A DNA stretch of 64,000 nt from Acetofilamentum sp. Lineage in GTDB: Bacteria > Hydrothermota > 32-111. The DNA is taken from positions 310,487-374,486 of the forward strand of contig DYMB01000001.1 in the NCBI GenBank assembly GCA_020721805.1, given 5' to 3'. Position 1 is the first letter of the stretch, and every line of letters begins with the position of its first letter. The position numbers and the translations under genes are program-made. The notes beneath the pieces are model-generated. The model saw only the letters and a program-made list of their open reading frames with translations, ran no database searches and had not been told where the DNA came from. Positions 5,076 to 56,238 of this stretch are shown piece by piece.

Positions 5076-5754
5076 ACTTTTCATCATTCCCAAAGACATC
5101 GGTAATATTGATGATATTTCCTCAAGAATAAAGGAGGTTTTAAAAAAATGTGATTTTCTTGTTTGTGAGGATACAAGAGTTATAGGTATATTTTTAAAAA
5201 AACTCGGTATAGAAAAAAAAGATTACATATCTTTTACCGAATATAACCAAAAAACAAAAACATCGATCATTATAAATATGATAAAGAATGGGAAAATCGG
5301 AGGCCTTTTGAGCGATTCTGGAACACCCTTGATTTCTGATCCAGGTTTTTATCTTGTCAGAGAGGCTATAAACGAAGGAATAGAAATTGTTCCTTTACCC
5401 GGTCCCGTTGCTTTTATAACCGCTCTTGTGGGTTCTGGACTTCCAACCGATTCTTTCACTTTTTATGGTTTTTTACCAAAAAAGGAAGGGAGAAGAAAAA
5501 AGGTTTTAAATGAAGCAATATCAAAAAGGGAAACATCAATTTTTTATGAGTCTCCATACAGGATAGATAAAACCATTAAAGAGTTGAACGATATTGACCC
5601 CGAAAGGAATATCGTTATTGCGAGAGAACTCACAAAAACATTTGAAGAGTTTATCAGGGGAAAAGTCAGTGATATTATCAAAAAGGAATGGACAAAAAAA
5701 GGTGAAATGGTTCTTTTGATAGAAGGAGTTAGAGATGATAAACGAAAAAACTAA
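5068..5754 (+). CDS. rsmI: 16S rRNA (cytidine1402-2'-O)-methyltransferase
   Basis: Tetrapyrrole-methylase fold enzyme that uses SAM to 2'-O-methylate C1402 in the decoding centre of 16S rRNA. Conserved pieces are the N-terminal IIPKDIGNIDDIS (counterpart of the usual ATPIGN-DDIS), CEDTRV, LLSDSGTPLISDPGF, PLPGPVAFITALVGSGLP and FYESPYRI. At 228 residues it lacks the C-terminal extension of some homologues. It starts at ATG 5068, inside the end of the upstream gene, and its own end overlaps the next gene by 20 nt. Confidence 0.95.
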   Translation: MSKLFIIPKDIGNIDDISSRIKEVLKKCDFLVCEDTRVIGIFLKKLGIEKKDYISFTEYNQKTKTSIIINMIKNGKIGGLLSDSGTPLISDPGFYLVREAINEGIEIVPLPGPVAFITALVGSGLPTDSFTFYGFLPKKEGRRKKVLNEAISKRETSIFYESPYRIDKTIKELNDIDPERNIVIARELTKTFEEFIRGKVSDIIKKEWTKKGEMVLLIEGVRDDKRKN

Positions 5755-6340
5755 AAATTTTTTTAGAAACCTTTTAAATCCTTTAATAGATTTTATAATA
5801 TTTTTAAAAATCTCTCCAAATTTTCTTACACTTTTTGGAATGTTGTTATCCATTTTTGCAGGATTTCTTTATTTTAAAGGATCATTTATTTATGGTGGTA
5901 TAGTTCTTTTGTTAGGTTCACTGTATGACACCTTTGATGGTATGGTGGCAAGAAAGAGTCAGAAGGTTACCATCTTTGGAGCATTTCTTGATTCAACCAT
6001 AGATAGGTTTAACGAATTCTTTGTTTTATCGGGAATGATACTTTTTTTCTATTCTAAAGAGGATATTTTATACTCAACCATAGTTCTGTCATCTATGTTT
6101 TTTTCAATAATGGTCAGTTACACAAGGGCAAGAGCGGAGGGACTCGGAATCGAATGTAAGAATGGTCTTATGGGAAGAGTTGAGAGGATGATCTATATTA
6201 TAATCATCTCTTTTTTACCATTGAATATTTTCAAATATATGATAATATTATTTACATTCCTGACTTTTTTAACTGTCATTCAGAGAATAATGATTGTAAA
6301 AGCGGGAACAAACAAGAAGGAGGTTTTAAAAAATGGCTAA
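5735..6340 (+). CDS. CDP-alcohol phosphatidyltransferase family protein
   Basis: Integral membrane enzyme of the CDP-alcohol phosphatidyltransferase family (201 residues, about five or six hydrophobic segments). The complete catalytic motif D-x2-D-G-x2-A-R-x8-G-x3-D-x3-D is present in [12 protein letters not shown]...[10 protein letters not shown]. The next gene, overlapping by 8 nt, is myo-inositol-phosphate synthase. The likely acceptor is therefore inositol phosphate, making the product a phosphatidyl- or archaetidyl-inositol-phosphate synthase. An alternative is the DIPP synthase half of di-myo-inositol-phosphate synthesis, which uses the same fold and is also found beside inositol-phosphate synthase in thermophiles; its cytidylyltransferase partner is not in this window. 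The family is certain; the substrate is inferred from context. Confidence 0.88.
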
Positions 6341-7424
6341 AAAGTCAAAAAAGATCAGAGTTGGAATCATAGGAGTTGGGAACTGTGCTTCTTCTTTGGT
6401 TCAGGGGATAGAGTTTTATAAAAATGCCAGAGAGACTGAAACGATACCCGGTTTGATGCATGTAAATCTTGGTGGATATCATATCTCTGATATCGAGTTT
6501 TCCTGTGCTATCGATATTAACAAAACTAAAGTGGGAAAAGATCTTTCCGATGCTATCTTTGCACATCCCAATAACACCTACAAATTCACCGATGTTCCCA
6601 AACTCGGTGTGAAGGTCGAAAGGGGAATGACACATGATGGAATTGGGAAATATCTCTCAGATGTTATAGAGAAAGCACCAGGAAAAACTGCTGATATCGT
6701 TCAACTTTTTAAAGATACAAATACTGACCTTGTTATTAACTATTTACCTGTTGGTAGTGAGGAAGCAACGAAGTGGTATGTCGAACAGGCATTACAGGCA
6801 AAAGTTGGATTTATAAACGCCATACCAGTTTTTATAGCGACTTCAGAATATTGGGCAAAAAGATTCAGGGATGCAGGTCTTCCAATAATAGGAGATGACA
6901 TAAAATCGCAGGTTGGTGCTACAATAACGCATAGAGTTTTAACTTCACTTTTCGTGGACAGGGGAGTCAGACTTGATAGAACCTATCAACTTAACATTGG
7001 TGGAAACACAGATTTTCTTAATATGCTTGAAAGGGAGAGATTGGAAAGTAAAAGAATTTCCAAAACTCAGGCTGTAACATCGATTCTTCCATATAAAATA
7101 GATGATGAAAACATACATATCGGTCCATCGGATTATGTGGCATGGCTTAAAGATAGAAAGTTCTGTTTTTTAAAGATGGAAGGGACAACTTTTGGAGAAG
7201 TTCCTTTAAACCTTGAACTAAAACTTGAGGTTTGGGATTCACCAAATTCTGCCGGAGTTGTAATAGATGCTATTAGATGTTTGAAACTTGCTCTTGATAA
7301 CAAACTTTCAGGTCCACAGATAGAGCCTTCTTCATATTTTATGAAGTCTCCACCTGTTCAATTTCCAGATTCTATATGTAAGAAAAAGACTGAAGAATTT
7401 ATTTCAAAATACAGTCTAAAATAA
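6333..7424 (+). CDS. ino1: myo-Inositol-1-phosphate synthase
   Basis: Converts glucose 6-phosphate to inositol 1(3)-phosphate using bound NAD. The 363-residue protein belongs to the short actinobacterial/archaeal type. Diagnostic segments are the N-terminal Rossmann [26 protein letters not shown], the signature [27 protein letters not shown] and [15 protein letters not shown]. It overlaps the CDP-alcohol phosphatidyltransferase gene by 8 nt and follows a strong AAGGAGG SD. The pair looks like a dedicated inositol-phospholipid or inositol-solute unit. Confidence 0.95.
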
Positions 7425-21962: not shown

Positions 21963-21981
21963 TTATTGATTTTATCAATAA
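21963..21981. promoter_or_regulatory. 8-bp inverted repeat and -10 box ahead of the polysaccharide cluster
   Basis: TTATTGAT-TTT-ATCAATAA is a perfect 8-bp inverted repeat between the M18 gene and the SLBB gene, directly followed by a consensus TATAAT at 21984-21989. No -35 at the correct spacing was found other than sequence inside the repeat, so an activator or repressor operator is plausible. A weak transcript-end hairpin is the alternative. Confidence 0.4.
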
Positions 21982-22019
21982 TTTATAATAAAATAATTTA
22001 TTTAGAAAAAGGAGAAATA

Positions 22020-22475
22020 ATGAAAAGGTTCGCTTCAATGATTTTTTTTATGATCTTTTCTTTATCCATATTTTCACAGGAAACTATCAAGAATGATTAT
22101 TTTTCATATGATGAACAACAAAAATATCTTTTGATAAGGGTAAATATATGGGGTTATGTTAACAATCCTATGTCAACACTTGTTCCTGATGGAACGGATC
22201 TTATTACAGCAATATCCTATGCAGGTGGTCCCAAAGAAAATGCAAACTTAAATTCTGTTGTGATAATACATTCGGATGGAACAAGACAGATATGCGATCT
22301 TGCAAAATATAAAAATGAAAATTCAAGAAATCATAATCCAATTTTAAAGCCTGGGGATACCGTAAGGGTTGGAGGTGATTTTTTGTATCATTTCACGCGT
22401 TATATGAGAGACCTTTACAATATAGCTGTAATCGCAAACATAGCGTATCTAATTTACATAAACCTAACCAAATAA
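22020..22475 (+). CDS. Small exported SLBB-domain protein, polysaccharide export type
   Basis: A signal peptide (residues 1-20) is followed by a single SLBB-like domain (about 38-118; VNIWGYVNNPMSTLVPDGTD, ISYAGGPKENANLN, LKPGDTVRVG) and one C-terminal membrane segment (about 133-150). Wza-type export proteins normally have a Poly_export domain before SLBB; it is missing here, so this is a reduced form or an accessory. I chose ATG 22020 (AAAGGAG before it) rather than 21966. It is first in the polysaccharide cluster, 10 nt before the Wzc-type kinase. Confidence 0.8.
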   Translation: MKRFASMIFFMIFSLSIFSQETIKNDYFSYDEQQKYLLIRVNIWGYVNNPMSTLVPDGTDLITAISYAGGPKENANLNSVVIIHSDGTRQICDLAKYKNENSRNHNPILKPGDTVRVGGDFLYHFTRYMRDLYNIAVIANIAYLIYINLTK

Positions 22476-22485
22476 AGGGGTTTTT

Positions 22486-24654
22486 ATGCTTGAGGATCTT
22501 CAGGAACAGGAGAAACTGACTTTAAGTGATTTTATCAACATCCTTTTAAAATACAGATATTTGATTTCGATTATAATAGTTTCCATTTTTATTTTATCTT
22601 TAACTTTAACATATCTTGAAAAACCCAAATATGTTGCAAAGACCGTTTTAATATTTGAAAGGGTGAATACAGGTTCCACATTTTTCCCTGTAACCGATCC
22701 TCTTGGAATGGTAGCTTTATTGAACAATCAGACACAGATTTTAAAATCAAGAACCTTGATGGAAAGAGTTAACAGATCTTTAAAAGAGGATACCATACTC
22801 TTAAATAGAGGTTATCATAAAGTTACAGCCTCAAGACAGAATCTTTCTATCAACAAATTGCAGGATACCTACATAATTGAGGTGAGCTATAAAAGTACCG
22901 ATAAGTTTTTGGCTGCATATATAACTAATAAAATCGCAAGTGAATATTATAGAATGAATCTTGATGCTATGAGGGTTACAGTTTCTCAGGTAAGAATCTT
23001 TTTGGAAGAGCAACTTAAGAAGATGGAAGACGAGTTGAACAAATCTGAGATACTTTTAAGAGATTACAAGAAGGAAAATAAAATTTCAAACCTTGAAAGC
23101 GAAACAAAGATACTGATAGATCAATTTTCACAATTCGAATCGGAACATAAAGAGATCTTACTTAACATAGATTCATATTCAAAACAGAAAGAATATTTTC
23201 TAAAGGAACTTGATCAAACTCAAAAAAATTTGATAGAAAATTTTACTTCCAACAGAACGGCTTTAATGGAAAACATTTTATCTGAAATCTCGAAACTTGA
23301 AATTGAAAAAGCTTATTATATTTCACAGGGATATTCAAACCAGCATCCCAAAATAATCCAGATAGATAACAAAATTGGAAATTTAAAGAATCAGTTGAAA
23401 GAAGAAACCGATAAGTCTTTCAAAAATAAACTCGTTCAAAAGGATCCTTTAAAATATTCAGGTGATATAATAGATAAGATACTTGAATTGGATAATGATA
23501 TCGCTTTTCTTGAAGCAAAATCTGAAGCCTTAAGAAGTCTTATAAATGTTTACAATAAAAAATTGGAAACTATTCCAGATCAGAATATTCAACTTGTTCG
23601 TCTTGAAAGAAACGCTAAGGTTAACGAAGATATTTACCTTATGCTTAAAAGGAGATATGAGGAAGCTAAACTTCAAGAAGTCGCTGAAGTTGGTAATGTT
23701 TCAATTATAGATACCGCTGTTGTACCAAGTATACCTGTTAGTCCCAAGAAAGGGAAAAATTTAATATTGGGACTTATGCTTGGAATCTTCTTTGGAATAA
23801 CTGTTGCTTTTGTTCTCTTCTTTTTAGATGAATCAATTAGAACAACTGAGGAGATAGAACATTATACCGGTGAGCAGATTCTTGGAATAATAAACTATAT
23901 AAGTAATGGTAAATTAAAAGACAAAAAAGGAACAAAAAACATATCTGAAAATGAGGTGATAGATAGGATAAGAAAGAAGTTGATAATAAATATGGAGCCA
24001 CATGCACCTATAGCCGAGGCTTATAGAAGTATAAGAACCCAGATAAAATACAGAAGTAAGGATGCGGAAAAACTTGTATTCGTTTTTACATCTTCAATCC
24101 CTGGAGAAGGTAAATCAACGACCATATCGAATCTTGGTATAACCATAGCAAATCTTGGGAAAAAGGTTATGCTCATAGATGCGGATATGAGAAAGCCAGT
24201 TATACATAAGATATTCAATGTCAAAAATGGAATAGGACTCGCTCACTATATAAATGGTAAGGCTTCTTTTAAAGATATATTAAGAAATACTGAAATTGAA
24301 AATCTTGATGTGATAACTTATGGAACAAAGCCTATAAATCCCTCAGAGTTACTTGAAGACGAAAAGATGAACGAGTTGCTGGAAGAGTGTAAAAAGTATT
24401 ATGAATATGTCCTTATAGATACTCCACCAGTGAATGTTGTAACCGATCCGATAGTTTTAGCGAACTATGCTGATAAACTTTTATGGGTTGTTTCTCCGGG
24501 TAAGGTTAAGAGGAAAGATTTGAGGCATGCAAAAAAATTGCTTATTCCAGTTAAAAGAAAGATACTCGGCATTATTGTTAACAGTGCGAAAACTGAAGTT
24601 TCCACTTATTATTCCGTATATTATAAAAAATATTATGGAGAAGGTGAATTATGA
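22486..24654 (+). CDS. Wzc-type polysaccharide co-polymerase with BY-kinase domain
   Basis: Inner-membrane chain-length regulator and tyrosine autokinase (722 residues). A Wzz domain lies between two membrane segments (about 24-42 and 427-447), with a long periplasmic coiled coil between. The cytoplasmic BY-kinase has Walker [12 protein letters not shown], Walker A' LIDADMRKP, Walker B VLIDTPP and a C-terminal tyrosine cluster ([15 protein letters not shown]), whose phosphorylation cycles with polymer assembly in the family. It overlaps gmd by ATGA. Confidence 0.93.
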
Positions 24655-25616
24655 AGAAAGTTATTATCACTGGAATAACCGGACAGGATGGGTCATACCT
24701 TGCTGAATTTTTATTATCAAAAAATTATAGGGTCTATGGGATGGTTCGTAGATCCTCAACTGAAAATTTTGAAAGGATTGAACATATAAAAGATAAAATA
24801 GAGTTTTATCATGCGGATCTTCTCGATTTCTCTTCACTCGTTGAAATGATCGATGAGATAAGGCCTGATGAAGTTTACAATCTTGCAGCGCAATCTTTTG
24901 TTCCTACTTCATGGAAACAACCTATTTTAACTGGAGAATTTACAGCACTCGGTGTAACAAGGATCCTTGAAGCGATAAAACTTATAGATAAAAAAATAAA
25001 ATTTTATCAGGCATCGTCGAGTGAAATGTTTGGAAAAGTTCTGGAGATCCCTCAGAAGGAAACCACTCCATTTTATCCGAGATCACCCTATGGAGTTTCA
25101 AAAGTTTATGGTCATTTTATTACCGTGAATTACAGAGAGAGTTATGATATATTTGCCTGTTCAGGTATACTTTTCAACCATGAAAGTCCAAGAAGAGGTA
25201 GAGAGTTTGTAACCAGAAAGATAACAGAAGGTGTTGCAAAGATAAAACTTGGAATGACGGATAAACTTTATCTTGGAAATCTTGATGCTAAAAGAGATTG
25301 GGGGTATGCTGGAGATTATGTGAAGGCGATGTATCTGATGCTTCAGCAGGAAAAAGCTTCAGATTATGTTATAGCGACCGGAGAGACACACAGCGTAAAA
25401 GAGTTCGTTCAACTAGCTTTTGAAAGGGTTAGCCTTGATTACAAAGATTTTGTTGTTATCGATAAAACACTTTTTAGACCCGCAGAGGTGGATCAACTCG
25501 TTGGTGATTATTCAAAAGCAAAGAGGATCCTTGGTTGGGAACCAACCGTAAGTTTTAAAGAACTTGTAAATATGATGGTTGATAGTGATTTAGAAAAGTT
25601 AAAGAATAATGGTTGA
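24651..25616 (+). CDS. gmd: GDP-mannose 4,6-dehydratase
   Basis: Extended SDR enzyme that makes GDP-4-keto-6-deoxy-D-mannose, precursor of GDP-fucose, GDP-rhamnose or GDP-perosamine. The 321-residue protein shows [15 protein letters not shown], the catalytic SSSEMFG and YGVSKVYGH (Tyr-x3-Lys), [17 protein letters not shown] and [17 protein letters not shown]. No reductase, epimerase or aminotransferase to finish the sugar is encoded in this cluster. It overlaps both neighbours by a few nt. Confidence 0.94.
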
Positions 25617-27157
25617 TGAAAAAAGAAATTGCAATAGAATACGCGGTCAAAAACACTCTTTTCCTTTATATAGGGAATCTTTTTGTTTCACTCGCTAATC
25701 TCATAATTTCCATCTACATAATAAGAAAACTTTCAATATCCGAATTTGGATTATACAGTTTCATACTCGGTTCATTCTTTTTCGTTCAGATCTTTTCACT
25801 TTCAAGTATATCAACCATACTAAACAGGTTCATCCCCGAACTCGTTGAAAAGCAGAGATACATCATTTTTAAGAGGCTACTTGAATATTCTTTCATAATA
25901 GTTTTCATTTCACTTTTACTTATTTCTTTAATTTTTGTTTTATTTTCCAAAAGTTTTTCTACATTTTTTAATTTGCCAGATATATTACTTTATAAAAATC
26001 AGATCATCTTTTTTCTTTTCGGTCATATATTGCTTCTTTATGTAAGGGCGATCTCATCTTCCACACTGTTGCAGAAAGAGACGGCCTTGATGAATATTAT
26101 TGCATCGATTTTTAGAGTTTCAGTCTATGGAATTTTTATCTTCAACATAAATTTAAAAAAGATTTTTTTGATAGAAAGTTTTACCAGTCTTTTCAACGCA
26201 TCGATAATATATATATTTGTTATTTTAAAATTTATCAAAAACAATTTAAAAAATGAATCCAAAAATAAAATTGAAAATTTCAGAAAAAGAATCATAAGAT
26301 ATGGTCTACTTTCCTTCTTCAACGAGGTTGGAGCGGGAATGATAAGCAAGGCAACCAGTTATTATGTCATATCTTCAATGTCAAATTCAGTGGAACTCGG
26401 AAAATATTCTTTCGCATACAAGATAAACGATCTTTTTATGAAAATATTTCCAATAGATCAGATCGCAAATGTTTTAAAGCCTATTTTTTTTATGAAATAT
26501 GTTGATAGAAAAGATGATTTAGAGTATATAAACAGAATGTATGTTTTTCTTTATAAATTTTTTTTCTGGGTTTTTGCTTTTTTATGTTTTTATTTCATTT
26601 CAGTTTCCGATCTTGTCATAAGGTTCGTTTTTGATCCCAAATACATCGACTCAAAGAAGATTACCGATGTGATTTTTATGTTTACACTTTTCAATTCTTT
26701 TCAGGTCCCTTTGGGTTTTGTTGTCCTATCACTTGAAAAACTTGAGATAAACCTTATAAGTAAAATCTCTTTGATATTAAATATTTTGGGTTCTATAATG
26801 GTCATCAAATATTTTGGAATACTTGGTGTTGCATTTATTCTCGGTTTTTCTATCCTTTTAAAAAATTTAATAATATTGTTTCTCTTAAGAAAAAATATAG
26901 TGCTTTCCTTTCCGTTCAAATCACTTTTCAGAACAATTATAATTTCATTATCATTATTTTCTTTAGTTTCCTTAGCAAAGAGCATTTTTATTTTTGATTC
27001 AGCTTTGAAAGCTTATATTTTTATACTTTTAAGCTCTTCTGCTGGAGTTTTTATCTATTTTATTCTTTCAAAACTTATTCAACCTTTTGAAATAGAAGAA
27101 AAAAATATAATAAATCAAATGTTTAAAAAAATAAGATTATCATTTGTGAAATTATGA
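25616..27157 (+). CDS. Wzx-type oligosaccharide flippase
   Basis: A 513-residue membrane protein of the MATE/MOP superfamily with about 12-14 spans. The N-terminal half carries the RfbX/Wzx-like KNTLFLYIGNLFVSLANLI and ISEFGLYSFILGSF. Such proteins flip lipid-linked repeat units across the inner membrane. The start is ATG 25616, sharing one base with the gmd stop (TGATG); the TTG at 25613 in the ORF track is less likely. The family call is strong, the substrate unknown. Confidence 0.88.
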   Translation: MKKEIAIEYAVKNTLFLYIGNLFVSLANLIISIYIIRKLSISEFGLYSFILGSFFFVQIFSLSSISTILNRFIPELVEKQRYIIFKRLLEYSFIIVFISLLLISLIFVLFSKSFSTFFNLPDILLYKNQIIFFLFGHILLLYVRAISSSTLLQKETALMNIIASIFRVSVYGIFIFNINLKKIFLIESFTSLFNASIIYIFVILKFIKNNLKNESKNKIENFRKRIIRYGLLSFFNEVGAGMISKATSYYVISSMSNSVELGKYSFAYKINDLFMKIFPIDQIANVLKPIFFMKYVDRKDDLEYINRMYVFLYKFFFWVFAFLCFYFISVSDLVIRFVFDPKYIDSKKITDVIFMFTLFNSFQVPLGFVVLSLEKLEINLISKISLILNILGSIMVIKYFGILGVAFILGFSILLKNLIILFLLRKNIVLSFPFKSLFRTIIISLSLFSLVSLAKSIFIFDSALKAYIFILLSSSAGVFIYFILSKLIQPFEIEEKNIINQMFKKIRLSFVKL

Positions 27158-27762
27158 TTCTTGCAAAAATCATTCAACATTTTATGAAATTAAAAAAATT
27201 TATTTTGTCAAGCCTGTATTCAAAATTTTTATTGAAAAGTAACGGTAAGGTTACCTACTATTCCACACCCTTTATTTCACATCCTCAAAATATTTTCATC
27301 GGTAAGGGTACAATAATATATAAGGATGTTACACTTTTTGCCTCAAAAGAAAAGAACTCTTTAACCGTTGGAGAAAACTGTATAATTCATCCTTATACCA
27401 TCATCAAAGTAACAAAAGGAAGAATAGTTATTGGAAACTATTCTTCTTTAAACAGTTTCTCTATGATCGTTTCAAATGGAGATATAACCATAGGAAACTT
27501 TGTTAGAATCGGTCCACAAACCCTTATAATTTCGTCAAATCATAATTATAAAAATACGGATATTACAATATATGAGCAGGGGGTTGATGGTAAAGGGATA
27601 GTTATCTCTGACAATGTATGGATAGGAAGTGGGGTAAAAATACTTGATGGCGTGAGGATTGGAAGCGGTTCGGTTATAGGTGCTGGTGCAGTTGTTACCA
27701 GAAATGTTCCCCAAAGGGTTTTGGTCGGTGGAGTTCCTGCTAAAATTATAAAGGAGATTTAG
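27154..27762 (+). CDS. Left-handed beta-helix (hexapeptide) acyltransferase
   Basis: A 202-residue acyltransferase of the maltose/galactoside acetyltransferase type. Hexapeptide repeats run from about residue 45 (IGKGTIIYKDVTLF) through IGNYSSLNSF and IGNFVRIGP to VWIGSGVKILDGVRIGSGSV, ending GGVPAKIIKEI. The catalytic His is in SSNHNYKN. It probably acetylates a sugar of the polymer. It overlaps the flippase gene by ATGA. Confidence 0.88.
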   Translation: MILAKIIQHFMKLKKFILSSLYSKFLLKSNGKVTYYSTPFISHPQNIFIGKGTIIYKDVTLFASKEKNSLTVGENCIIHPYTIIKVTKGRIVIGNYSSLNSFSMIVSNGDITIGNFVRIGPQTLIISSNHNYKNTDITIYEQGVDGKGIVISDNVWIGSGVKILDGVRIGSGSVIGAGAVVTRNVPQRVLVGGVPAKIIKEI

Positions 27763-28892
27763 TGAGCAAATTGAAAAATATTTTGATCATTTCAAAATAT
27801 TTTTATCCATATGAATCAGGTTCAGAAAAAACAACAAGATACATTATAGATAATCTTGTAGGAAAAAATTATAAAATCTTTCTTTTATCTTTTAAAGCTA
27901 ACAAAGAGAGATTGAACGAAAAAACTATTTTTTATTCTCTGGATCGTTTTAAAGGGATATACGATTTTTTTGAAAAAAAGAAATTTTTCAAAGAATTTTT
28001 TGATATATTTTTTGGTACACTTATAATTTTAAAAATCCTTTCAAAAGAAAAAATCGATCTTATCAACATCCATTATGCTGAATCTATAATGTTACCTGCT
28101 GTTCTTATTGGAAAATTATTTTCAAAAAAAACCGTTATACTCTGGCCAACGAGTTCGGTATACCATCTTAAAAATTATGATAAAAAGATCAATTATTTTA
28201 TAAGTAAAATCTCTTCTAAATTGGCAGATAGATTCATCGCAAAAGGTATGGATGTTGACGAGATTAAAAAAATTTTTAAAATATCGTCAGATAAACTTTT
28301 TCTAACGCCAAATCCAATAGAATGTAAAGATTATGAGGTTGAACTTAACGATTTTAATGGGAAACTCGGGATCTATTATCTTGGTAAATACAACGGTTTC
28401 AAAAGACCCGATATTCTAATAGAAGCTGTTGGAATGATGAAAAAAGAAAATTTAAAGAAAATAGAGGTATCATTCTATGGTGATGGGGATTACAGGGAAA
28501 AAATGGAAATACTTGTAAAAAGACTCGCCCTTGAAAATATTATCAGGATTTATCCGCCTGTAAAAAATGTGAAAGAGATCATTTCAAAAAATCATGTTTT
28601 TGTTTATCCCTCTCCTTTTGAACCTGCTTTTGCCCAGTCTATTCTTGAATCATTTTCATCCGGAAGAATAGTGATATGCAAGAAAACAAAATCTATGGAA
28701 AGATTTTTTGATAAAAAATCTTATATCGGAATAAAAAGAATGGATCCTTTATCACTTTCCAAACAACTCGATATTGTGGTTGAGAATTATGATTCCTTAA
28801 AATATCTTGGTATGAATGCAAAAAAAATAATAATCGAAAAGTTCAATTTTAATTATTTTATAAGTCTTCTGGAGAAAATATTTCAAAGATGA
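27762..28892 (+). CDS. Glycosyltransferase, GT4 family
   Basis: A cytoplasmic GT-B glycosyltransferase of 376 residues. The N-terminal half begins NILIISKYFYPYESGSEKTTRYI. The C-terminal GT4 domain contains LGIYYLGKYNGFKRPDILIE and the donor-binding PSPFEPAFAQSILESFSSGR. The GTG start at 27762 shares one base with the previous stop and follows AAAGGAG. It should add a sugar to the lipid-linked repeat; donor and acceptor cannot be told. Confidence 0.88.
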   Translation: MSKLKNILIISKYFYPYESGSEKTTRYIIDNLVGKNYKIFLLSFKANKERLNEKTIFYSLDRFKGIYDFFEKKKFFKEFFDIFFGTLIILKILSKEKIDLINIHYAESIMLPAVLIGKLFSKKTVILWPTSSVYHLKNYDKKINYFISKISSKLADRFIAKGMDVDEIKKIFKISSDKLFLTPNPIECKDYEVELNDFNGKLGIYYLGKYNGFKRPDILIEAVGMMKKENLKKIEVSFYGDGDYREKMEILVKRLALENIIRIYPPVKNVKEIISKNHVFVYPSPFEPAFAQSILESFSSGRIVICKKTKSMERFFDKKSYIGIKRMDPLSLSKQLDIVVENYDSLKYLGMNAKKIIIEKFNFNYFISLLEKIFQR

Positions 28893-30016
28893 AAGTTGTT
28901 TATATAAGATTTCAGGATTTTAAAAAAAGATTTTATATTTCAAGTGAGAGGGAAATAGTCAGATCATTCAATAGATTGAAAACAAACTCTTTACTTCTTG
29001 CTTTCGGTGAGAAAAAGAATGAACCTGATTTTGTAAAACTTTTTTCTTCTTTTAAAAACATCAAATTTTTAATCAAATTGAATATCGCAAAGTTCATATT
29101 AAGATTCAAAAACAAGAAGACTATTTTTGTCTTTGATGTAAATTCCACTATGATTTTTATAGGTAATTTTATTTATAGAAAAATTTTTGGAGGCAAAAAT
29201 AGATTTATTCTTGATGTGAGATCGATCCCTGTTGTAGATCCGTCAAAAAAAGATATAATAAGATTTAAAATAAGTTTAAGGATATCTAAACATTTTTTTG
29301 ATGGTTTCTCATTCATAACTGAAGAAACACGAAGAATATGTGAAGTGTTTATAAAGAAAAAATTTAAAACCTATGTTGTATATCCATCGGGATTCAACGA
29401 AGAAATCTTTTATGTAAAAGAAAAAAGAGATGATATTTTAAAAAAATTTAATATTGAAAACAAAAAAATAATTTTTTATCATGGATCGATATCAAAAAAA
29501 AGAGGTCTTGAAGAATTGTCAAAATCAGTTGAGAGACTCAAATTATCCGATAAAAATATTGTACTCTTTGTGGTTGGTGGTGGAGATGGGGAAATGGAAG
29601 AGATGTTGAGAAGTTCAGGAAATATTCTCATACCACCCGTTGCTTACGAATCTATTCCGGATTATATAAGTATTGCTGATGTTTGTGTCTCCCCGTTGCC
29701 CGACTTGGTATGGTGGAGAGGAGCGAGTTCATTGAAAGTGATGGAGTATATGGCTATGGGTAAACCTATGGTTCTTTCAGACATAAAGCCACACAGGGAT
29801 GTTTTACCTGATGGGATAAAAGGATATGTGTTGTATGAACCATCTTGCTGGGAAAATCTTTATAAAGCGTTAAAAAAATTTTTTGATGAGGAAGAATCAT
29901 ATAAAAAAGAATCCTTCAGATTATCAGAGTATGCTCATAAAAATTTCTCATACGATCTTATTGCTTCAAAAGTTTTAAAATTTTATAAAGAGAGTATTTA
30001 TAGGGAAAACGGATGA
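28889..30016 (+). CDS. Glycosyltransferase, GT4-like
   Basis: A second GT-B enzyme (375 residues). The N-terminal half is divergent and Lys/Phe-rich. The C-terminal half has the GT4 pattern: IIFYHGSISKKRGLEELSKS, VGGGDGEMEEM, ISIADVCVSPLPD and LKVMEYMAMGKPMVLSDI. It overlaps both flanking genes by ATGA, so it belongs to the same translation-coupled series. Confidence 0.86.
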   Translation: MKVVYIRFQDFKKRFYISSEREIVRSFNRLKTNSLLLAFGEKKNEPDFVKLFSSFKNIKFLIKLNIAKFILRFKNKKTIFVFDVNSTMIFIGNFIYRKIFGGKNRFILDVRSIPVVDPSKKDIIRFKISLRISKHFFDGFSFITEETRRICEVFIKKKFKTYVVYPSGFNEEIFYVKEKRDDILKKFNIENKKIIFYHGSISKKRGLEELSKSVERLKLSDKNIVLFVVGGGDGEMEEMLRSSGNILIPPVAYESIPDYISIADVCVSPLPDLVWWRGASSLKVMEYMAMGKPMVLSDIKPHRDVLPDGIKGYVLYEPSCWENLYKALKKFFDEEESYKKESFRLSEYAHKNFSYDLIASKVLKFYKESIYRENG

Positions 30017-31923
30017 ATTTTGTTTTTGAAAACAAATTTTTAAAAGTGATATTCTTTATTTTACTGGCTATTGCTATCGTATTTTTTGGTAAAGCTGATA
30101 TTCTCAAACTGTCACTCGTTGGAACACTCTTCTTGTTGATACTTGTAATAACTAACATAGAAATAGTTTTTATTTTGCTTGTTATAGTAGGTTTTACTTT
30201 CAATTTTCTTACAGAAGCGTATGGATTCCCTGGGAAAATAGTTTTTCTTTATGATCTGATAATCTATCTTTTCTTCTTATATGGACTTGTGGGTGGTAAA
30301 AGAAAAATTTACAGGATCGAATTTCTTTTTATTTTTTATGTTATTTTTTTGATGATTTCAACAATTTTAGGTAGGGAGTCTTTGCCGTTGAAATTAAAGG
30401 GTGTTATCGTATATATAAGATATCCTATTCTTTTTATATCTCTTATGAGGCTAAACATAAAATCCGATACATACAAAAGGGTTTTGAAATTCATAATCTT
30501 TATGTCTATACTTCAGGTCCCAACTTCCATAGTACAGTTCTTAAAGGGAAACAGACCTGATTGGTGTGGTGGTTTTCTTGCAAGGCATGGAACAGGCATA
30601 GGTGCTGTTTTGATGGCTTCGATGTTTCTTTTTATACTTGGTTGGATGATAGTTGACAGGATAAGATTAAAATATCTTTTATATTCTATATTTTTTATGA
30701 TACCTCTTATTTTAGGTTCAGCGAGAGCAGGTTTTATTTTCTTTTTTCTCGCGATGATATTTATGTTTATCGTTTATATGTTGCATGTAAAATATGTATC
30801 CGCTTATTCTCTATTTTTTACGGTAGTTGGTATTTTACTCATATTTTTAATTTTTTATACAATGTTGATTTACATTGTTCCCATTTTTGAACCTAAAACA
30901 GCGAAGACCCTTGAAGTTATAAGTTCAATCGAGAACATTAAGAAGGATATGCTTGGGACCTATTCTGAAGGAAAATTGAGAAGGTTGAGTAATCTTCTTT
31001 TTGCTTACGAATATTTAAAAAAGGATATTTTAACTCTCTCTTTTGGTAATGGTCCCGGAACTGTTGTGGTATCAAAAAGTTTTGGCAACTCTGAATTTAT
31101 GCAGGAGTATGAGCGCTTTTTTGAATCTTCACTATCCTTTCCATCATATTTTCTTGAAATAGGAATAGGTGGATTATTTTTTGTGGCTTTGATTTATTTT
31201 TATGTTATCTTTTTTTCATTAACGAGAGCGATACATATAGAAGACAAATTTTTGAGGATCACAGCTTTTGCTTTATCGGGAATATCTTTTCTTTATCTTT
31301 TGGCATCGGTTTATACCGCTGTATGGTCTCAGGAAGCATTACAACTTCTTTTTATAGTTTCCTTTGCTGCTCTTATCGAACCAGCATACGGATCCGCAAA
31401 AAAGGAAAAAATTTTTGCTATACTATTTTTAAAAACTATAAACCCGGGAGAAAAAGCGAGTATTACCAAACTATTAACCTATCTGATAAATAATGAAATA
31501 AAAACCATTTTTGTTGTTTCAAATGAAGATAATGAAAATCTTTTGTGGATTAAAGAGAATAAAAGAAAATTGGGAAATAGTAGAATCAAATGGATAAAAA
31601 GTTCTGGTGATAGACCTTTAGAACAGATATTCTATATCAACTCTTTACTTGAAAGATACAAGGTGAATATGATATTCTTTTATATGGAAGATGATGATAT
31701 AACGGAAGGTATTATGAAAGATGCTTTTAAACACACAAAATCTTTTATCTATGAATTTTTAGATAAAAAGTTTATAATGAAAATATTAAAAAATGATATT
31801 ATAAAATTTTTGTATCTTATAAAAGATAAAAAAATACTGGAACAAGAGAACTATCTTGAGATAATAAAAAAAGAGTGTTACACTTATAATATACAGATGG
31901 AAACAATGGAAAAAAATTTGTAG
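30013..31923 (+). CDS. Wzy/O-antigen ligase-like polymerase with extra C-terminal cytoplasmic domain
   Basis: Residues 1-455 form a polytopic membrane protein with about 12 spans. The large loop and following helices (NRPDWCGGFLARHGTG, LGSARAGFIFFFL) fit the Wzy_C/O-antigen ligase family, which polymerises or transfers repeat units at the periplasmic face. Unusually, about 180 further residues follow (from AYGSAKKEKIFAILFLK): a soluble, alpha/beta-looking, Lys-rich domain with YLINNEIKTIFVVSNEDN and NMIFFYMEDDD that I do not recognise. It starts by ATGA overlap and ends 15 nt before egsA. Confidence 0.82.
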   Translation: MNFVFENKFLKVIFFILLAIAIVFFGKADILKLSLVGTLFLLILVITNIEIVFILLVIVGFTFNFLTEAYGFPGKIVFLYDLIIYLFFLYGLVGGKRKIYRIEFLFIFYVIFLMISTILGRESLPLKLKGVIVYIRYPILFISLMRLNIKSDTYKRVLKFIIFMSILQVPTSIVQFLKGNRPDWCGGFLARHGTGIGAVLMASMFLFILGWMIVDRIRLKYLLYSIFFMIPLILGSARAGFIFFFLAMIFMFIVYMLHVKYVSAYSLFFTVVGILLIFLIFYTMLIYIVPIFEPKTAKTLEVISSIENIKKDMLGTYSEGKLRRLSNLLFAYEYLKKDILTLSFGNGPGTVVVSKSFGNSEFMQEYERFFESSLSFPSYFLEIGIGGLFFVALIYFYVIFFSLTRAIHIEDKFLRITAFALSGISFLYLLASVYTAVWSQEALQLLFIVSFAALIEPAYGSAKKEKIFAILFLKTINPGEKASITKLLTYLINNEIKTIFVVSNEDNENLLWIKENKRKLGNSRIKWIKSSGDRPLEQIFYINSLLERYKVNMIFFYMEDDDITEGIMKDAFKHTKSFIYEFLDKKFIMKILKNDIIKFLYLIKDKKILEQENYLEIIKKECYTYNIQMETMEKNL

Positions 31924-31938: not shown

Positions 31939-33000
31939 ATGTATAATACCATCGATATACCGCTTTTCATAACGATTGAAAGTAATGCTCTACACAATAT
32001 CAAAAAGATACTTCAAAAGTCAAATCTTCATATGAACAATCCAGTTATAGTAACAGATGCTGGAAAATCACTTGAGTATGCAAAAATGGTTGCAAGAATG
32101 CTTAGAATAAAAAAGAGTAAATTCATTATGGTATCCTTTAATACCTATGAAGAGGTTAAAAGGGTTGAAAGGTTTGCAAGAAATTTAAAATCCGATTTTA
32201 TAATTGGTATAGGTGGTGGGAAAGCTCTTGATATAGCCAAATTCGCTTCATTCAGATATGGAGGATATTTTTTAAGTATTCCAACTTTACCATCACATGA
32301 TGGTATAGCATCTCCAGTTGCATCCATAATGATAGAGGGGAAAAGGATGTCGGTTGGTGCTTCCATGCCTCTTGGTATACTCATCGATATAGATGTTATC
32401 AAAAATTCACCGAAAAGATTTATTTTTTCCGGGATAATGGATCTTATCTCAAATGTCTCAGCTATAGAGGATTGGATACTCGCATATCAAAAAGGATATG
32501 AAATAAGATTCAATGGATTTTCAAAGGCGATAGCCCTCTCTGCTGCTGAAAGTGTTTTAAATTTTAATGAGAAAAATATTTACAATGAAGAATTCCTGAA
32601 AATACTTTTGAATGGATTGGTTCTCTCTGGAATCGCCATGGAGATAGCTGGTTCATCGAGACCCGCTTCAGGGTCTGAGCATAATTTTTCACATGCCTTC
32701 GATCTACTTTATCCTGACAACACCTTTCTCCATGGAGAAAAAGTGGGAGCGGGACATTTGATAATTTCATATTTGAGAGATAAAAATGAATATAAAAAAA
32801 TTTTAAACTGTTTTAGGGATTTTGGCATAACTGTGGAACTGAAAAAAATATTTGAAGATAAAGATAAACTTTTGAAAGTTTTTTTAAAAGCTAAAGAAAT
32901 TAGAAAAGATAGATATTCCTATTTAAACGAAATATCTTTAAATGAAAAATTTTATAAAAATGTTATCGAAAAAGTTTCAAGGGATATTTTTTCTGTTTAA
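31939..33000 (+). CDS. egsA: sn-Glycerol-1-phosphate dehydrogenase
   Basis: NAD(P)-dependent reduction of dihydroxyacetone phosphate to sn-glycerol 1-phosphate, the backbone stereoisomer of archaeal lipids. The 353-residue protein has the nucleotide-binding GIGGGKALDIAKFASF, the G1PDH hallmark SIPTLPSHDGIASPVASI (residues 113-130) and SSRPASGSEHNFSHAFD (239-254). Zinc ligands are probably the Asp in GIMDLISN, a His in SEHNFSH and His265 in LHGEKVG. Glycerol dehydrogenase and dehydroquinate synthase are related but lack the SHDGIASP and SRPASGSEH pairing. It follows the polymerase gene by 15 nt with SD AAAGGAAGG and converges on a MerR gene. Confidence 0.92.
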   Translation: MYNTIDIPLFITIESNALHNIKKILQKSNLHMNNPVIVTDAGKSLEYAKMVARMLRIKKSKFIMVSFNTYEEVKRVERFARNLKSDFIIGIGGGKALDIAKFASFRYGGYFLSIPTLPSHDGIASPVASIMIEGKRMSVGASMPLGILIDIDVIKNSPKRFIFSGIMDLISNVSAIEDWILAYQKGYEIRFNGFSKAIALSAAESVLNFNEKNIYNEEFLKILLNGLVLSGIAMEIAGSSRPASGSEHNFSHAFDLLYPDNTFLHGEKVGAGHLIISYLRDKNEYKKILNCFRDFGITVELKKIFEDKDKLLKVFLKAKEIRKDRYSYLNEISLNEKFYKNVIEKVSRDIFSV

Positions 33001-33817: not shown

Positions 33818-35042
33818 AAGGAGGATTAAATGGCAAAGGAGAAATTTGAAAGGGCGAAGATTCATATGAACATAGGGACGATAGGGCATGTGGATCATGG
33901 TAAGACAACATTGACGTCTGCGATAACGAAGGTATTGGCATTGAAGAAGTATGCTGAGTATACTCCATATGATGAGATAGATAAGGCACCGGAGGAGAGG
34001 GCTAGGGGTGTAACGATAAATGTGGCGCATATAGAGTATCAAACAGAGAAGAGGCATTATGCGCATGTTGATTGTCCTGGGCATGCTGATTATATAAAGA
34101 ACATGATAACAGGGGCTGCGCAGATGGATGGAGCGATACTTGTTGTGAGTGCTAATGATGGAACGATGCCGCAGACGAAGGAGCATATACTGTTGGCGAG
34201 GCAGGTTAATGTTCCGAGTATAATAGTATTTATGAACAAGGTGGATATGGTTGATGATCCTGAGATACTTGATGTAGTTGAGATGGACATAAGGGACACA
34301 TTGAAGGCTAACAAGTTTCCTGGTGATGAGATACCTGTGATAAGGGGGAGTGCGTTGAAGGTGTTGGAGAGTGCTAGTACTGATATGAATGCACCTGAGT
34401 ATAAATGTATAATGGAATTGATGGATGCTGTAGACAATTATTTTCCTGATCCTGTGAGGGATAAGGATAAGCCATTTTTGATGAGTATAGAGGATATATT
34501 CAGTATAACTGGAAGGGGTACTGTTGCTACGGGTAGAGTTGAGAGAGGGCAGATAAAGGCTGGTGAGGAAGTTGAGATAGTTGGGTTGGGGATGCATAAG
34601 AAGACGGTGGCGACATCTTTAGAGATGTTTAAGAAGATACTTGATTATGCTGAGGCTGGAGATAATGTTGGAGTTTTGTTAAGGGGAATAGATAAGGATG
34701 AAGTTGAGAGGGGGATGGTGCTGGCAAAGCCAGGGAGTGTGACGCCACACAAGAAGTTTAAATGTCAGGTTTATGTATTGACTAAGGATGAAGGTGGACG
34801 TAGTACATCGTTTAAGAGTGGATACAGGCCGCAGTTTTTTTTCAGGACGACGGATGTTACGGGGTCAATAGAATTGGCTCCTGGTCAGGAGTTTGTGAAG
34901 CCTGGTGAGAATACTGAATTTATAGTTGAATTGATAACACCGATAGCGATGGAGAAGGAACTGAGATTTGCTATAAGGGAAGGTGGAAGAACCGTTGGCG
35001 CTGGTGTTGTAACTGAAATATTAGAATAAGAGGATTAAGATG
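33818..35042 (+). repeat. Direct repeat, copy 1: identical tuf unit
   Basis: This 1,225-bp tract, from AAGGAGGATTAA before tuf to the ATG of the following ribosomal gene, reads the same at 55014-56238 (offset 21,196), with no difference seen on parallel reading. Identity stops abruptly on both sides, which suggests gene conversion. Confidence 0.9.
33830..35029 (+). CDS. tuf: Elongation factor Tu (copy 1)
   Basis: GTPase that delivers aminoacyl-tRNA to the ribosome. The 399-residue protein has G1 [10 protein letters not shown], the effector loop [10 protein letters not shown]3 DCPGHADY and G4 NKVD, followed by two beta-barrel domains ([22 protein letters not shown]; the C-terminal [15 protein letters not shown]). 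The DNA is unusual: by my count Lys is AAG 29 times and AAA 3 times, while the next gene, rpsJ, has AAG 3 and AAA 12. Arg is mostly AGG and Gly often GGG. The copy at 55026 encodes the identical protein. fusA, rpsG and rpsL, which often precede tuf, are not here. Confidence 0.99.
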
Positions 35043-55013: not shown

Positions 55014-56238
55014 AAGGAGGATTAAATGGCAAAGGAGAAATTTGAAAGGGCGAAGATTCATATGAACATAGGGACGATAGGGCATGTGGATCATGGTAAG
55101 ACAACATTGACGTCTGCGATAACGAAGGTATTGGCATTGAAGAAGTATGCTGAGTATACTCCATATGATGAGATAGATAAGGCACCGGAGGAGAGGGCTA
55201 GGGGTGTAACGATAAATGTGGCGCATATAGAGTATCAAACAGAGAAGAGGCATTATGCGCATGTTGATTGTCCTGGGCATGCTGATTATATAAAGAACAT
55301 GATAACAGGGGCTGCGCAGATGGATGGAGCGATACTTGTTGTGAGTGCTAATGATGGAACGATGCCGCAGACGAAGGAGCATATACTGTTGGCGAGGCAG
55401 GTTAATGTTCCGAGTATAATAGTATTTATGAACAAGGTGGATATGGTTGATGATCCTGAGATACTTGATGTAGTTGAGATGGACATAAGGGACACATTGA
55501 AGGCTAACAAGTTTCCTGGTGATGAGATACCTGTGATAAGGGGGAGTGCGTTGAAGGTGTTGGAGAGTGCTAGTACTGATATGAATGCACCTGAGTATAA
55601 ATGTATAATGGAATTGATGGATGCTGTAGACAATTATTTTCCTGATCCTGTGAGGGATAAGGATAAGCCATTTTTGATGAGTATAGAGGATATATTCAGT
55701 ATAACTGGAAGGGGTACTGTTGCTACGGGTAGAGTTGAGAGAGGGCAGATAAAGGCTGGTGAGGAAGTTGAGATAGTTGGGTTGGGGATGCATAAGAAGA
55801 CGGTGGCGACATCTTTAGAGATGTTTAAGAAGATACTTGATTATGCTGAGGCTGGAGATAATGTTGGAGTTTTGTTAAGGGGAATAGATAAGGATGAAGT
55901 TGAGAGGGGGATGGTGCTGGCAAAGCCAGGGAGTGTGACGCCACACAAGAAGTTTAAATGTCAGGTTTATGTATTGACTAAGGATGAAGGTGGACGTAGT
56001 ACATCGTTTAAGAGTGGATACAGGCCGCAGTTTTTTTTCAGGACGACGGATGTTACGGGGTCAATAGAATTGGCTCCTGGTCAGGAGTTTGTGAAGCCTG
56101 GTGAGAATACTGAATTTATAGTTGAATTGATAACACCGATAGCGATGGAGAAGGAACTGAGATTTGCTATAAGGGAAGGTGGAAGAACCGTTGGCGCTGG
56201 TGTTGTAACTGAAATATTAGAATAAGAGGATTAAGATG
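55014..56238 (+). repeat. Direct repeat, copy 2: identical tuf unit
   Basis: Same 1,225-bp tract as 33818-35042. It begins at AAGGAGGATTAA and ends with the ATG of rpmG. Flanking bases differ immediately outside (G here against T upstream; A here against G downstream). Confidence 0.9.
55026..56225 (+). CDS. tuf: Elongation factor Tu (copy 2)
   Basis: Identical in protein, and as far as I can read in DNA, to the copy at 33830, including the G-ending codon preference. It is co-transcribed with four upstream tRNAs and followed by rpmG, so a different promoter drives this copy than the one in the S10 operon. The GTPase motifs are as in copy 1. The placement matches E. coli tufB, whereas copy 1 occupies the tufA-like position before rpsJ. 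Confidence 0.99.

Follow-up and report, generated by a model that had tools for sequence, protein, structure and literature searches.

No chemical difference between bacteria and archaea is regarded as firmer than that in the enantiomer of their glycerol phosphate, and to our knowledge no bacterium has membrane lipids that are all of archaeal handedness. In a survey of phyla that included WOR-3, Coleman et al. 2019 (PMC6431249) found glycerol-1-phosphate dehydrogenase (G1PDH) in two FCB phyla only, and Villanueva et al. (PMC7852524) described Cloacimonetes that encode GGGPS and DGGGPS together with a G3P dehydrogenase and without G1PDH, WOR-3 being absent from the main text of that paper. Isobe et al. 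2014 (cited in PMC7852524), working with Methanosarcina acetivorans genes in E. coli, reported that archaeal lipid is fully reduced only with ferredoxin. For ester lipids, PMC13400652 compared G1P and G3P as substrates of PlsY from B. subtilis and E. coli and reports that both are used, with no significant difference; PlsC of both species, according to the same paper, accepts both lysophosphatidic acids. A search of the open-licence PMC literature yielded no account of a bacterium that has G1PDH and is without G3P-forming enzymes.

The G1PDH gene considered here lies in a stretch of 64,000 nucleotides of Acetofilamentum sp. (the window). The genome that holds it (G000; 1.70 Mb, 99.8% complete) belongs to the phylum Caldifarciminota (candidate division WOR-3) and to a family of five genomes, G000-G004, of which G001 is a congener and corresponds to UBA6260 (contig DJVI01000014). 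What is new appears to be the genome context and not the gene: to judge by gene content, the archaeal enantiomer seems to be the sole one that this bacterial family can draw on for its lipids.

Genomic setting of the G1PDH gene

The annotated genes of the window that bear on this question are as follows.

5735..6340, forward strand: CDP-alcohol phosphatidyltransferase; best match archaetidylinositol phosphate synthase, 158 bits (cut-off 180)
6333..7424, forward strand: myo-inositol-phosphate synthase (INO1)
21966..22475, forward strand: SLBB-domain (Wza-like) polysaccharide export protein, first of the exopolysaccharide genes
22486..24654, forward strand: Wzc-like chain-length/BY-kinase
24651..25616, forward strand: GDP-mannose 4,6-dehydratase (Gmd); 458 bits, above cut-off
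25613..27157, forward strand: Wzx-like flippase (PF01943)
27154..27762, forward strand: hexapeptide acetyltransferase
27762..28892, forward strand: GT4 glycosyltransferase
28889..30016, forward strand: GT4 glycosyltransferase
30013..31923, forward strand: putative Wzy-like multi-spanning membrane protein, inferred and without a family match
31939..33000, forward strand: glycerol-1-phosphate dehydrogenase (G1PDH/EgsA family), by profile, residues and predicted fold; ATG start, 353 aa
32977..33558, reverse strand: MerR-type regulator, convergent with G1PDH

A preliminary description of the window had placed G1PDH at the end of a surface-polymer cluster, and the genes from 21966 to 31923 indeed precede it, with 15 bp between the end of the Wzy-like gene and G1PDH; tuf and ribosomal genes lie beyond the convergent MerR gene. 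Two elongation factor Tu genes (33830-35029 and 55026-56225) stand about 20 kb apart and have identical N-terminal sequences. In each of the five family genomes, G1PDH adjoins exopolysaccharide genes. At the G002 locus, Wzx, glycosyltransferase and Wzy genes are absent and G1PDH directly follows gmd, with an SLBB gene nearby, which indicates that G1PDH is not tied to polymer assembly.

Identity and affiliation of the G1PDH

The open reading frame was present as previously described, and both motifs named for it, SHDGIASP and SRPASGSEHNFSH, were found. It matches the NCBIfam G1PDH model PRK00843 over its full length with 291.7 bits (E 6.8e-87), a score below the curated cut-off of 413, as is true of every WOR-3 G1PDH, and the glycerol dehydrogenase profile with 83 bits. 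Across an alignment of 99 relatives, D121, D168, H248 and H265 are invariant, and the sequence carries the S-[HN]-DGI motif. We take these four residues to be metal ligands or substrate residues, the metal-ligand assignment being general superfamily knowledge. Residue 167 (window 32437-32439), just before the assumed ligand D168, is Met in all G1PDHs of the family, and outside it this position is Gly or Ala almost everywhere in the same alignment; since this family-specific Met adjoins an assumed metal ligand, the specificity of the enzyme could differ, a point that counts against an exclusive supply of G1P.

A sequence search of the PDB gave 191 bits for 3ce9, 155-160 bits for archaeal G1PDHs and at most 60 bits for characterised glycerol dehydrogenases. 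The fold comparison repeats this rank order: the AlphaFold2 model (pLDDT 92.7) matches 3ce9 and the archaeal G1PDHs 4rgv, 4rgq and 5fb3 with E values of about 1e-20 to 4e-26, followed by AraM (9h4x, 5e-17) and glycerol dehydrogenase (1jq5, 4e-16). The closest solved structure, 3ce9 from C. acetobutylicum, was deposited as a glycerol dehydrogenase and carries G1PDH motifs, and its label is probably mistaken. Together, profile, active-site residues and predicted fold support the assignment as a genuine G1PDH rather than a glycerol dehydrogenase, as first proposed. That the gene encodes a glycerol dehydrogenase or another Fe-ADH without a role in G1P formation, a reading to which the shared superfamily and the label of 3ce9 lend some colour, is scarcely credible given 292 against 83 bits in the profile comparison and the higher structural rank of archaeal G1PDHs over characterised glycerol dehydrogenases. 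A second Fe-ADH of G000, on contig C65, was considered as a G1PDH and rejected, as its match to the G1PDH model is weak and covers one third of the sequence; by sequence it looks like an ordinary Fe-ADH.

G1PDH was found in 67 of 147 WOR-3 genomes, so that the gene by itself is ordinary in the phylum and the earlier description of bacterial occurrences as few goes too far for WOR-3. All G1PDHs of the family fall into a single clade (100/100) that lies outside the archaeal one (100/100), and the deep position of the family clade is not settled (AU test, p 0.43). The term 'archaeal-type' is thus imprecise. The separation of the two clades speaks against a recent transfer from archaea as the source of the gene, but the AU test does not settle the matter at depth. 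Elsewhere, in several bacterial phyla, G1PDH genes lie directly 3' of a HAD phosphatase gene (L127:2622-4371, L161:7293-9044, L158:488-2350 and L174:7218-9041), pairs whose annotation suggests a route from dihydroxyacetone phosphate through G1P to glycerol; in the tree, these HAD-linked G1PDHs are placed closest to the family clade, although weakly so. In the sister family the gene set is reversed, with GpsA and GlpK present and G1PDH and GGGPS absent.

Ether- and ester-lipid genes

The preliminary description had proposed a search for a G1P-using prenyltransferase, and one was found: GGGPS is encoded in 5/5 family genomes, in each case in the order geranylgeranyl reductase-GGGPS-IspE. The geranylgeranyl reductase scores 177.5 bits against TIGR02032 (cut-off 158.8), and in four family genomes a 2x4Fe-4S ferredoxin gene lies just upstream of it. 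On contig C3 of G000 (L084:9032-12000), the ferredoxin-geranylgeranyl reductase pair, adjoining GGGPS, is duplicated in tandem over 1.43 kb (99.5%); it is single-copy in the other family genomes checked. A DGGGPS-like UbiA, encoded elsewhere in the genome, reaches 182 bits against the DGGGPS model (cut-off 296), and its gene adjoins uppP in four family genomes. With GGGPS, this putative DGGGPS, the reductase and the ferredoxin all encoded, a G1P-using prenyltransferase exists in the genome, and the use of G1P as an ether-lipid backbone, one of the two uses first considered, is supported. Two observations count against a lipid supply of G1P alone: the profile search gave no strong DGGGPS-like UbiA match in G004, and the GGGPS frame of G000 is interrupted within an A14 run, perhaps through a sequencing error or at a slippage site, and is intact in the relatives checked. 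The search for CarS (CDP-archaeol synthase) returned only weak CdsA-type matches, and we assume that bacterial CdsA may stand in for it. The overlapping genes at 5735-7424 are an inositol phospholipid head-group pair, the CDP-alcohol phosphatidyltransferase scoring higher with the archaeal (archaetidylinositol) model than with the bacterial phosphatidylinositol phosphate one; on this annotation, it may attach head groups to the same lipids.

The bacterial ester pathway is present as well. PlsY, with conserved GSGN-GATN, GGKG and HxxN motifs, and PlsC are encoded in all five family genomes. PlsX and FASII were sought in the window's genome only, where a plsX-fabH-fabD-fabG-acpP-fabF cluster was found, with PlsX (269 bits), FabH and FabF above cut-off, and where a CdsA-like gene also occurs. 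A second PlsY paralogue of G000 (L083:6454-7095) is without the C-terminal HxxN motif. As PlsY, PlsC, PlsX and FASII are kept in the window's genome and GpsA is gone, the bacterial pathway is complete there except for its backbone supply.

Loss of recognised G3P-forming enzymes

The GpsA C-domain was found in 0/5 family genomes versus 53/60 relatives, and the N-domain in 0/5 versus 132/147 WOR-3 genomes. Ten further WOR-3 genomes are without the N-domain; these are single, mostly incomplete genomes, and no other WOR-3 family with more than one genome is without it throughout. When the survey is limited to genomes with a completeness of 90% or more and a contamination of 5% or less, the N-domain is present in 85 of 93, and five of the eight without it make up the family. 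From a background of 3/88, five misses in five by chance would have a probability near 5e-8, our own calculation, which addresses missing data and not independent losses. GlpK was likewise found in none of the five genomes, and three of the four genomes of the sister family have it; GlpA/GlpD was found in none of the five with a model that was positive in the controls E. coli, B. subtilis and S. acidocaldarius.

The locus itself points the same way. In the sister family, gpsA (verified, 426 bits) abuts plsY in the order der-plsY-gpsA-MerR (L176), and in G000, G001, G002 and G004 the order is der-plsY-MerR, where plsY overlaps the MerR gene; G003 has a response regulator after der-plsY and no gpsA. 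An assembly gap was rejected as the cause, since four genomes are contiguous across the locus without gpsA and the scattered absences elsewhere fall mostly in incomplete genomes. From these searches, every recognised G3P-forming enzyme seems to have been lost from the whole family.

Source and handedness of the lipid backbone

The retention of G1PDH with loss of the recognised G3P enzymes suggests that the membrane lipids of the family may all have archaeal handedness. G1PDH would convert dihydroxyacetone phosphate to sn-glycerol-1-phosphate, from which GGGPS, the DGGGPS-like UbiA and the ferredoxin-driven geranylgeranyl reductase would form an archaeol-type ether lipid, while FASII, PlsX, PlsY and PlsC would build fatty-acid ester lipids on G1P in place of G3P; head groups would be added by CdsA and CDP-alcohol transferases, including the inositol-phosphate pair of the window. 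Such a scheme supposes that PlsY and PlsC of the WOR-3 family would accept G1P as the E. coli and B. subtilis enzymes do, that no G3P would come from uptake or from an enzyme not yet known, and that the place of G1PDH among exopolysaccharide genes would reflect only envelope co-expression. On the genes present, we consider it somewhat probable that G1PDH supplies the sole endogenous glycerol-phosphate backbone, with ether and ester lipids both based on G1P. The stronger proposal, that the membrane lipids, fatty-acid esters included, are built solely on sn-glycerol-1-phosphate and that the archaeal enantiomer fully replaced the bacterial one after the loss of gpsA, is put forward tentatively, as a reading about which doubt slightly outweighs belief.

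Other sources and uses of the backbone were weighed against this. In a heterochiral mixed membrane, as in the FCB mixed-membrane model with both backbones (PMC7852524), G1PDH would serve the ether lipids only and PlsY would use G3P scavenged through an importer or from glycerophosphodiesters or lysophospholipids; uptake of either enantiomer, G3P or G1P, is described for the bacterial binding proteins UgpB and GpxB in the abstract of PMC12718374. A complete FASII/PlsX/PlsY/PlsC pathway that depended on an imported backbone would be unusual, however, and the endogenous G3P synthesis expected of a mixed membrane was not found, GpsA, GlpK and GlpA/D, the three recognised routes, being gone from all five genomes; we regard scavenging as unlikely. 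Quite improbable is an ordinary set of ester lipids whose G3P comes from an unrecognised enzyme or from a G1PDH of switched stereospecificity. The loss of gpsA calls for some compensation, GpsA could have been replaced by an unrecognised enzyme family, which again tells against G1P alone, and Met167 is confined to the family; yet all other active-site residues, SHDGI included, fit the G1PDH pattern, and GGGPS is kept throughout the family.

The position of G1PDH, last in the exopolysaccharide operon and beside such genes in every family genome, would suit the second use first considered, with G1P as a substituent or building block of the polymer. Profile and Pfam annotation of the cluster found no cytidylyltransferase or other nucleotidyltransferase and no glycerophosphotransferase, G002 has G1PDH without polymerase and glycosyltransferase genes, and GGGPS is at hand as a user of G1P; the proposal is thus not upheld, and we hold it very improbable. 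The preliminary interpretation is therefore supported in part, for the enzyme and the ether lipids and not for the polymer.

If all lipids of the family do rest on G1P, a living lineage can exchange one backbone enantiomer for the other and leave the rest of the pathway unchanged, and the family would be the counterpart in nature of the finding, made recently in vitro, that PlsY and PlsC accept G1P.

Comparison with known systems

The enzyme shares full-length homology, active-site residues and fold with archaeal G1PDH (EgsA; 4rgq of M. jannaschii, and also 5fb3), and the SHDGI motif with most archaea, and differs from it in identity (about 30%), in the separation of the clades (100/100 on each side) and in its bacterial host. 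Bacillus AraM is likewise a G1PDH in a bacterium that also holds a PcrB/GGGPS-family enzyme; its structure is a more distant match, at 22% identity, and Bacillus, unlike the WOR-3 family, retains GpsA, which was a control match in the GpsA search. The enantiomer promiscuity of PlsY and PlsC (PMC13400652) provides a means of making ester phosphatidic acid from G1P, although the accessible part of that work concerns E. coli and B. subtilis enzymes and names no natural G1P-limited bacterium. The pathway of the FCB group (Cloacimonetes; PMC7852524) resembles that of the WOR-3 family in combining GGGPS and DGGGPS, the latter a DGGGPS-like UbiA in the WOR-3 family, with a bacterial fatty-acid pathway, and the two are mirror images in their backbone supply, the Cloacimonetes MAGs having a G3P dehydrogenase without G1PDH and the WOR-3 family a G1PDH without G3P dehydrogenase.
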